Shown piece by piece: positions 59,456-61,831 of a stretch of DNA of 64,000 nt (position 1 is its first letter; the number at the start of each line of letters is the position of its first letter). Location: assembly GCA_001281695.1 (NCBI GenBank), contig LJIE01000001.1:1874586-1938585 (forward strand). The letters are read 5' to 3'. A program made the position numbers and the translations under genes. The stretch is from a bacterium 336/3 (GTDB lineage: Bacteria > Bacteroidota > Bacteroidia > Cytophagales > Thermonemataceae). The notes beneath the pieces were generated by a model, which was given only the letters and a program-made list of their open reading frames with translations, did not search any database and was not told the origin of the DNA.

Positions 59456-59481
59456 AAAGAGTAGCTTTTAGGCTACTCTTT
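59456..59481. terminator. bidirectional terminator
   Basis: AAAGAGTAGC/GCTACTCTTT with loop TTTTAG between convergent genes; it overlaps the stop codon of the minus-strand gene. Confidence 0.7.
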
Positions 59482-59962
59482 AAAAATCTCTTTTTCCTGT
59501 AAAATTCTCGAATTTTCTGACTAGAATGCTGTTTTCTATATATCTCAAGGCTTTATATTTGCCTTTAGGAATCAGAACAACTAATGGAGTAGCATTTTTC
59601 CAAACCAACCCTTCATCTGTTTTTTGAGAAACATACTCAAATGATAACTCTCCCTCATCTAACTCTACTCTTTTCGCCTGCATTGCCCAAGCATGATTAC
59701 CATACTTGATAATACCTACTGCAATATACTTATTCCAATCTATATTAGTCACTTCTTTTACATAATGCCCAGGATAAGGTTTAAAGAAGTTTCTCCATTC
59801 TTTTTCATTGTGTATTATAAGAAATATATCACTTTTTTCAGATTCTTCTCCTATGAAATGATAACCTTTAACATGATGGTAATTGATATCTCCTTGTGGC
59901 TTTACAGTAAAAGCAAGAAATAGCAATGATAATAATAAAATTGTTTTAAAATGTGTTCTCAT
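59480..59962 (-). CDS. exported protein of unknown function (PrcB-like domain suspected)
   Basis: This 160-aa protein has a signal peptide (MRTHFKTILLLSLLFLAFTV). The remainder includes VTNIDWNKYIAVGIIKYGNH and a late PLVVLIPKGKYKALRYIE, which loosely resembles the PrcB C-terminal domain that partners with proteases. The similarity is slight, and no protease gene is adjacent. A two-element promoter precedes it. No other assignment can be made. Confidence 0.55.
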   Translation of the reverse strand: MRTHFKTILLLSLLFLAFTVKPQGDINYHHVKGYHFIGEESEKSDIFLIIHNEKEWRNFFKPYPGHYVKEVTNIDWNKYIAVGIIKYGNHAWAMQAKRVELDEGELSFEYVSQKTDEGLVWKNATPLVVLIPKGKYKALRYIENSILVRKFENFTGKRDF

Positions 59963-59985
59963 CTTATGATAGCAAAACTATAATA

Positions 59986-60015
59986 CAAAAGTACTACAAA
60001 ATAGTACAATATCAA
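59986..60015 (-). promoter_or_regulatory. promoter for the minus-strand exported protein gene
   Basis: On the minus strand TTG (60013-60015) and TACTTTTG (59986-59993) are separated by 19 nt. The expected start near 59979 lies 17 nt before the ATG. Confidence 0.6.
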
Positions 60016-60301
60016 AATAATTAATGTTTTTTTTGAAAAAAAGTTACTAACAATAATACGATAAAAATAATAACAAGGTTTCAATTTTTTTCTAAAAAGT
60101 ATGTTTGCAGAATAAATTTTGTTAAAAAATGGTGAAAATATTACATGCTTTTTAGAGAAAATTATGAAAAAATATAATTCTGGTTTATAGATTTGATTTG
60201 AAATTAAATATATGCAATTGATATAAATTTAGAATATTATTTTAGATGAAATAGATTTTACAATCGGTGAAATATTTGAATTAAACGTTGAAATTTTGGG
60301 C

Positions 60302-60358
60302 AAAAAAAAAGACCTGCCACAAATTGCGACAGGTCTTTTATCCTTCAACCAGCTATGA
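60302..60358 (-). ncRNA. predicted ~55-nt small RNA
   Basis: A full promoter (60365-60395, minus strand) directs transcription into a strong hairpin: AAAAGACCTG and its complement (60307-60316, 60331-60340), then nine T. The RNA would be about 55 nt and contains no convincing ORF. The nearest downstream minus-strand gene is ~340 bp away, so it is unlikely to be a leader of that gene. I cannot assign a target or a known family. Confidence 0.5.
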
Positions 60359-60364
60359 TTAAAT

Positions 60365-60395
60365 CAAAAGTAATACAATATTATGAATATTCCAA
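60365..60395 (-). promoter_or_regulatory. promoter for predicted small RNA
   Basis: TTG (60393-60395) and TACTTTTG (60365-60372), 20 nt apart on the minus strand. This promoter has the same -7 box as the neighbouring one at 59986. Confidence 0.55.
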
Positions 60396-60566
60396 TATTA
60401 TTATGTATTTTTTTTATTTTTAACAATAAAATGAGATAAATAAGAGTTCTTAAACTTAAGTAAAAACTTGTTATTCAGTATTCAATAGAACTGGGTAGAA
60501 AAAAATATTATGCTTTAGAATCAAGAAAACTTATTTTGCAAGTCTATCTTTTTAATCAGTAATAAA

Positions 60567-61157
60567 ATGATTGATTTTACAAACTTGAAAAGCCATATTT
60601 GCAAACGTGTTGAACTCTCAGAAGAGGAATTAAATCTCTTTTGCTCTTTCTTTAAATTGTCGAAAATCAAGAAAAGACAATTTATTATTCAACCTGAATT
60701 TGTAGCAAAATATCGAAATTATATTGTTCAAGGAGCTTTTCGGGCATATGTAGTAGCAGATGAGGGGCAAGACCATACCATACAATTTGCTATTGAAGAT
60801 TGGTGGATTTCAGATTATAATAGCTACATTTATCAACAACCTGCAACTATGTTTGTTATAGCATTGGAAGATAGCTTAATTTTACAAATTTCTTATGAAG
60901 ATGAACAGAAGTTAAAGTCTCTTAATCACAAATTTGAAACCTTTTTTAGAATTATAGCAGAACGTTCTACAGCATTTATGCAAAAACGAATTATTATGAA
61001 TCTGACTAAAACAGCTGAAGAACGTTTCAATGAATTTGAAGAAAAATACCCTTTAGTAGCTCAAAGAGTGCCTCAGTATGCGTTGGCTTCATTTCTAGGC
61101 ATGACAACAGAATATCTATCCAAACTCAGAAATAAAAGAATTACCAAAAAAAGTTGA
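60567..61157 (+). CDS. Crp/Fnr-family transcriptional regulator (copy B)
   Basis: This 196-aa protein has the Crp jelly-roll core (IKKRQFIIQPEFVAKY, IQFAIEDWWISDYNSY) and a C-terminal helix-turn-helix (ALASFLGMTTEYLSKLRNK). As in copy A, the canonical cAMP-contact pattern is not apparent, so another ligand or none may be used. It stands immediately upstream of an AhpD-like gene (129 bp), which it probably controls. Confidence 0.88.
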   Translation: MIDFTNLKSHICKRVELSEEELNLFCSFFKLSKIKKRQFIIQPEFVAKYRNYIVQGAFRAYVVADEGQDHTIQFAIEDWWISDYNSYIYQQPATMFVIALEDSLILQISYEDEQKLKSLNHKFETFFRIIAERSTAFMQKRIIMNLTKTAEERFNEFEEKYPLVAQRVPQYALASFLGMTTEYLSKLRNKRITKKS

Positions 61158-61285: not shown

Positions 61286-61831
61286 ATGGAAACATTATCT
61301 CAAGCATTCTCAGTTCCCACCAGAGCAGAAGTTTCAGTAAACAACCAAGCAATTTTTGATAATCTTCAAAAAGGTTTAGGATTCGTTCCGAATCTGTATG
61401 CTTATTATGCCAAAAACGAAACAGCTTTAGCAGATTATCTAACACTTCAAAATAGAAAAAGTACTTTGAGACCTAAAGAAAGAGAGATAATCAATTTAGT
61501 TACTAGTCAAATCAATGGTTGCAGATACTGCCAGTCAGCTCATACAGTTTTAGGTAAAATGCATGGTTTTACTGAAGAACAAATTCTCGAAATCAGAAAA
61601 GGAACAGCCTCCTTTGATAGTAAACTTGATGCTTTGGCTCAATTTACAGCCAGTATGGTAGAAAACAGAGGTAAAGTTAGCCAAACAGCAAAAAATACAT
61701 TTTTCGAGGCAGGCTATACAGAAGCCAATATGATAGATGTAATCATTGTGGTAGGAGATAAAATCATTAGCAACTATATTCACAATATCACTCAATTAGA
61801 AATAGATTTCCCTGTAGCTGAAGAGCTTTAA
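61286..61831 (+). CDS. AhpD-like carboxymuconolactone decarboxylase family protein (copy 2)
   Basis: This 181-aa paralogue of the gene at 37286 has the same CRYCQSAH redox centre (CxxC and His) and matching flanks (IFDNLQKGLGFVPNLYA, HGFTEEQILEIRKG). Copies 1 and 2 share nearly all core positions and even the MVPN/FVPN segment. It heads a likely two-gene unit with a DUF417 protein 38 bp downstream. A role in peroxide or reactive chlorine/electrophile removal is the family expectation. Confidence 0.86.
   Translation: METLSQAFSVPTRAEVSVNNQAIFDNLQKGLGFVPNLYAYYAKNETALADYLTLQNRKSTLRPKEREIINLVTSQINGCRYCQSAHTVLGKMHGFTEEQILEIRKGTASFDSKLDALAQFTASMVENRGKVSQTAKNTFFEAGYTEANMIDVIIVVGDKIISNYIHNITQLEIDFPVAEEL

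Follow-up and report, generated by a model that had tools for sequence, protein, structure and literature searches.

The window (the whole stretch of 64,000 nucleotides that was analysed) contains an intergenic gap of 604 bp at 59963-60566, the size given in the original prediction, and a predicted small RNA lies in this gap on the minus strand. The protein encoded at 60567 has a cyclic-nucleotide-binding domain, which at 26.8 bits narrowly misses the Pfam cut-off of 27.5, and the one encoded at 61286 has a carboxymuconolactone decarboxylase (CMD) domain of the AhpD-like kind. On the other side of the gap is a minus-strand ORF of 160 aa (59480-59962), with no match in a Pfam search at E≤0.001. 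It sits 340 nt downstream of the small RNA on the same strand; the earlier remark that no minus-strand gene is nearby is thus incorrect. This ORF has a separate promoter, TTTG/TACTTTTG, at 60016-59986, and a terminator-like site is seen at 59481-59456. The elements of the small RNA unit are as follows.

60365-60395, minus strand: Bacteroidota-type promoter TTG-N20-TACTTTTG (TTG at 60395-60393, 20-nt spacer, TACTTTTG at 60372-60365), score 9/10
60302-60358, minus strand: predicted small RNA of ~56 nt, matched by the covariance models R2 and R3, its exact start being inferred
60339-60357, minus strand: conserved 5′ sequence CATAGCTGGTTGAAGGATA (19 nt) with the core CATAGCTGGTTGA
60307-60339, minus strand: terminator hairpin of 15 pairs, based on the fold, on conservation in the genus and on compensatory changes in other lineages
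60302-60310, minus strand: run of nine T, four of which are able to pair in the stem

Promoter and nine T were both found where they had been predicted. The stem is longer than the 10 bp first given; 6 of its 15 pairs are G-C. A stretch of 59 nt has a folding energy of -23 kcal/mol, where shuffled sequences average -11.2 (z -4.8). An inverted repeat, AATATTCCAATATT, at 60386-60399 overlaps the -33 element, and its GAATATTCATAA part is kept in the genus; from its position it is perhaps an operator. A small protein encoded by the unit was considered and set aside as improbable, the 5′ sequence being without ATG.

Promoter-like matches of the form TTG-N17-22-TANNTTTG are common, with 31 in the 64 kb window, so that a promoter and a terminator alone are weak evidence for a transcription unit. 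The unit is taken to be more than chance because promoter, 5′ sequence and hairpin are conserved in three genomes of the window's genus (G001-G003) and because the 5′ 19-mer recurs. The conservation of stem and promoter in near relatives, whose absence was to have counted against the prediction, was therefore found, and it supports a small RNA that has a promoter and a terminator of its own.

Distribution of the family

In the window's own genome the 19-mer CATAGCTGGTTGAAGGATA occurs exactly three times; two of these are RNA copies and the third runs antisense to nth. When up to one mismatch is allowed, 31 of the 390 genomes searched in the order contain it, a count that includes probable chance matches (genome G345 holds only one doubtful site, L180), and the reversed control pattern was found in none. 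Model R2 was trained on 14 sequences from 11 genomes of the order, none from the window's genus and one (G004) from its family. It recovers the window copy at 60303-60357 with 31.4 bits. At E≤0.01 it matches 96 of the 390 genomes, which belong to 60 of the 129 genera, and at E≤1e-4 it matches 74; the 11 training genomes match by construction. For the genome counts with R2 and R3 at most 13 candidates per genome were scored, so that 13 means at least 13 and absences are soft. R3 matches the window at 60302-60357 with 38.0 bits; its alignment, A5, includes L420, probably a chance match. The RNA, described earlier as an orphan, thus belongs to a widespread and often multicopy family.

Weak R2 matches need care, since a viral coding site (26.4 bits) and the doubtful sites L180 and L218 (19.3 bits) also score. 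All but one (L420) of 50 inspected model matches start with CATAGCTGG, and the model search favours such matches. Outside the order, the wider model R3 gave 17 of 380 phylum genomes at E≤0.01 (best 2.0e-4, none at 1e-4); in 11 of these 17, inspected by eye, no clear promoter-terminator unit was seen. An 18-mer searched across 395 phylum genomes matched five, the window's own genome and four outside the order, against three for the reversed pattern.

Copies per genome range from one, in many genomes, up to at least 13; G140 holds 13 with at most one mismatch. Tandem copies are present in G103, G140 and G023, as groups of three (L203 1935-2694), two (L195 1982-2188) and three (L419 4853-5684). 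Carriage by phage was rejected: the single exact core match in viral contigs lies antisense inside a 902-aa ORF, with no hairpin-terminator unit by eye, and the hairpin pattern had no match in viral contigs. Plasmids searched with three of the copies yielded a single genuine carrier with a name. In Bernardetia sp. Wsw4-3y2 (Cytophagales), a named carrier, the RNA is flanked by NifU-family and geranylgeranyltransferase genes and is closely similar to the copy that G057, itself from the window's order, has. This likeness makes Cytophagales the probable identity of the order.

Architecture and structure of the copies

From 65 distinct sites 62 were kept, the nth antisense site, L180 and L218 being omitted. 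A downstream hairpin with z<-2 is present in 62/62 and a TTTT run in 53/62. Promoter scores (TTTG/TANNTTTG) of at least 9/10 were obtained for 26 of the 61 copies with enough upstream sequence, as against 1.5% of shuffles. Among the high-scoring copies listed, the -7 box ends 5 or 7 nt before the motif in 24 of 25, and from this position the RNA start in the short forms, to which the window copy belongs, is inferred to be at or just before CAUAGC. In long forms extra sequence stands ahead of the motif, often a hairpin and UUUCUUUC. In a set of 114 copies, chosen by a pattern fixing positions 1-11 and 13, 37 of the 88 without a near box have TANNTTTG 25-100 nt upstream (6.8% of shuffles). A second GCTGGTT, mostly as TTTAGGGCTGGTT, was noticed 31-57 nt before the motif in L159, L160, L171, L174, L175, L179 and L181. 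Copies L202, L203 and L209 (G103) and L210 (G052) have no clear TTTG/TANNTTTG promoter; they share a different upstream sequence ending in TATAG(T/A)ATTG or TATAAATTTG.

The 5′ core is fixed across copies and the stem varies by compensation. The covariation search in relatives that had been suggested gave compensatory changes in two subsets: 13 of 19 stem pairs in one, where shuffles average 5.2, and 10 of 19 in the other, where they average 6.3. Both counts exceed the shuffled and the slid controls. They were measured on the better-aligning subsets A2 and A4, a choice that favours structure; RNAalifold found no pairs in the mixed alignment A1. Further pair types were no more numerous than in shuffles (93 and 214 of 500). 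The sequence thus shows a separate promoter, the near-invariant CAUAGCUGGUUGA as 5′ core, and a terminator hairpin maintained through compensation. The existence of a small RNA family is considered nearly certain.

The genes next to 61 compared loci varied, the largest shared neighbour group having four members. A role in cis is therefore unlikely, and the link to a Crp/AhpD module drawn earlier finds no support. One neighbour group unites the window's Crp-like protein with relatives near copies L205 and L214, which speaks for such a link; this is likely due to chance, since the Crp-like protein has 30 matches in its own genome alone.

Candidate targets

The third 19-mer of the own genome (L187 1854-1872, which is G000:C1:4077953-4077971) is the complement of the start region of nth, the gene for an HhH-GPD protein. 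The perfect 19-nt complement of the small RNA ends in the start codon, and the predicted pairing extends over 20 pairs across the AUG (-34.4 kcal/mol). The nth start codon lies in the loop of a predicted hairpin of -22.3 kcal/mol whose stem spans the first codons, this loop being a perfect complement of the small RNA. By this complementarity the nth mRNA is the strongest target candidate in the own genome. The gene was found in 28 of 30 motif-bearing genomes, and none of the other genomes listed has the complement in its nth start region (L297 is cut at a contig end and the start in L306 is unclear).

When 1,088 start regions were sampled without choosing nth, the best one paired at -24.4 kcal/mol, with a seed two nt shorter; it lies upstream of a TolC-like gene, named by eye. 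At -18 kcal/mol or below there were five start regions, against two antisense regions, three mid-gene regions and an average of 0.9 for shuffled seeds (at most 5). A TonB-receptor-like gene, also named by eye, has a two-mismatch site 25 nt before its start. Nine-mer complements of the seed near starts numbered 9 in the unbiased sample as compared to 2.1, a value reached by 32 of 3000 shuffles. A larger set of start regions gave 17 versus 2.2, a count inflated by nth, which was included on purpose and supplies 8 of the 17; mid-gene regions were raised as well, with 10 versus 4.1. Across wider targets the enrichment of seed complements near starts is weak. The start-codon context was set aside as too weak for use (AGCT before ATG, 24 versus 10.7 expected, rank 6 of 256).

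Partner proteins and relation to known RNAs

Hfq was found in none of 47 genomes by a search that found it in 5 of 14 control genomes. RRM_1 (RbpB-like) proteins occur in 25 of the 47, among them 15 of the 25 that bear the motif; the 22 comparison genomes without the exact motif are not clean negatives, as R2 finds the family in several of them. The seven genomes from the window's family yielded no RRM_1 protein, and a partner of the RbpB type thus appears not to be needed in this lineage.

The statement that the RNA matches no known family holds at Rfam gathering thresholds. Rfam 15 gave no match at these cut-offs in the whole window. Eight copy-bearing loci gave five matches at E≤5, none of which reached its cut-off; SSRC34_2, with 25.9 bits where 48 are required and E 2.1, overlaps the L182 copy. 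In literature text, with figures, supplements and subscription journals outside its scope, no paper with AGCUGGUUGAAGGAU, GCTGGTTGAAGGAT or CAUAGCUGGUUGA was found, and a search by topic, judged on titles, gave no such RNA in Cytophagales. Within Rfam and the literature text covered, the family is apparently uncatalogued.

The nearest known system is FopS/GibS of Bacteroides (PMC11697453, PMC7366714), which appears to work alike; membership is not claimed. FopS of Bacteroides thetaiotaomicron is multicopy and promoter-driven, has its seed single-stranded at the 5′ end ahead of a terminator hairpin, pairs at mRNA start regions, those of susC-like mRNAs included, and is bound by the RRM protein RbpB (PMC11697453). 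The present family is likewise multicopy, with two copies in the own genome, and has a 5′ single-stranded stretch followed by a terminator. It differs from RbpB-bound FopS in that no RRM_1 protein was seen in the seven genomes of the window's family, and it extends across an order, whereas FopS is described within Bacteroidaceae (PMC11697453); the likeness is one of architecture. LhrC, Qrr and the Cia-dependent sRNAs, cited there as multicopy sRNA families (PMC11697453), belong to other phyla; compared by description, they resemble the present RNAs in having several copies with a common function.

Discussion

Judged from sequence, the small RNA likely acts in trans, and its pairing with targets is plausible. 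The 5′ core would serve as a fixed seed for mRNAs near their start codons, the 5′ CAU of the RNA pairing with the AUG of the target, and targets would bear UCAACCAGC near the start codon. Such pairing would block translation, as with FopS and GibS in Bacteroides. Copies with a common seed and differing promoters and terminators would allow a single regulator to be dosed additively or at different times. That the family is a multicopy trans-acting sRNA of the FopS type, with a fixed 5′ seed pairing near start codons, is given about an even chance.

The copies could instead be a decoy or cofactor for a protein in the manner of CsrB or 6S, AUAGCUGGUU being the binding site and the copies titrating the protein. 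In short forms the site would then lie open at the 5′ end, and in long forms it would be held in a hairpin loop. The core indeed varies much less than would be required of a seed whose targets change, the loop can be closed by five pairs in 41 of the 88 copies without a near box (12% of shuffles), and the second GCTGGTT stands in the 5′ part of seven copies. Yet the loop-closing stem is absent in the window's genus, and no protein candidate was found; a CsrA site is unlikely, the GGA varying among copies. The decoy is accordingly held to be possible but rather doubtful. AUAGCUGGUU is also identical to a stretch of E. coli 23S rRNA at position 803 (1.6% of shuffled cores match at least 10); mimicry of this rRNA loop was dropped, as the corresponding stretch in a Hymenobacter (Cytophagales) 23S carried on a plasmid is ATAGCTCGTA.

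The remaining explanations fare worse. Numbers of up to at least 13 copies per genome, some in tandem, could be attributed to a dispersed repeat or mobile element rather than a functional RNA, but all that the copies have in common is the core and a stem with compensatory changes, their promoters are separate and many genomes hold a single copy, which makes this reading very improbable. A leader or attenuator of the gene at 59480-59962 would fit its strand and distance; that gene has its own promoter, however, and other copies lie before, after or against unrelated genes, so that this reading is given slightly less credit still. A chance promoter adjoining a chance terminator, conceivable given how frequent promoter-like matches are in the window, is practically discounted in view of conservation and covariation.

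A bolder and distinctly tentative proposal is an order-wide RNA regulon that needs no Hfq and, in part of the lineages, no RRM protein either. In it the near-invariant 13-nt seed CAUAGCUGGUUGA would pair across the AUGs of many mRNAs and be carried on one to at least 12 separately promoted RNAs, and in the long forms the loop-borne seed would compete with the terminator stem.

RNA-based control in Bacteroidota has been covered mainly for gut Bacteroides in the literature as far as it was surveyed. The present results describe an sRNA family conserved across a further large order; its core is fixed, its boundaries are predicted and one candidate target can be named. The covariance models can be used to annotate this family in dozens of genera, and the family allows tests of sRNA action in organisms where Hfq was not found.
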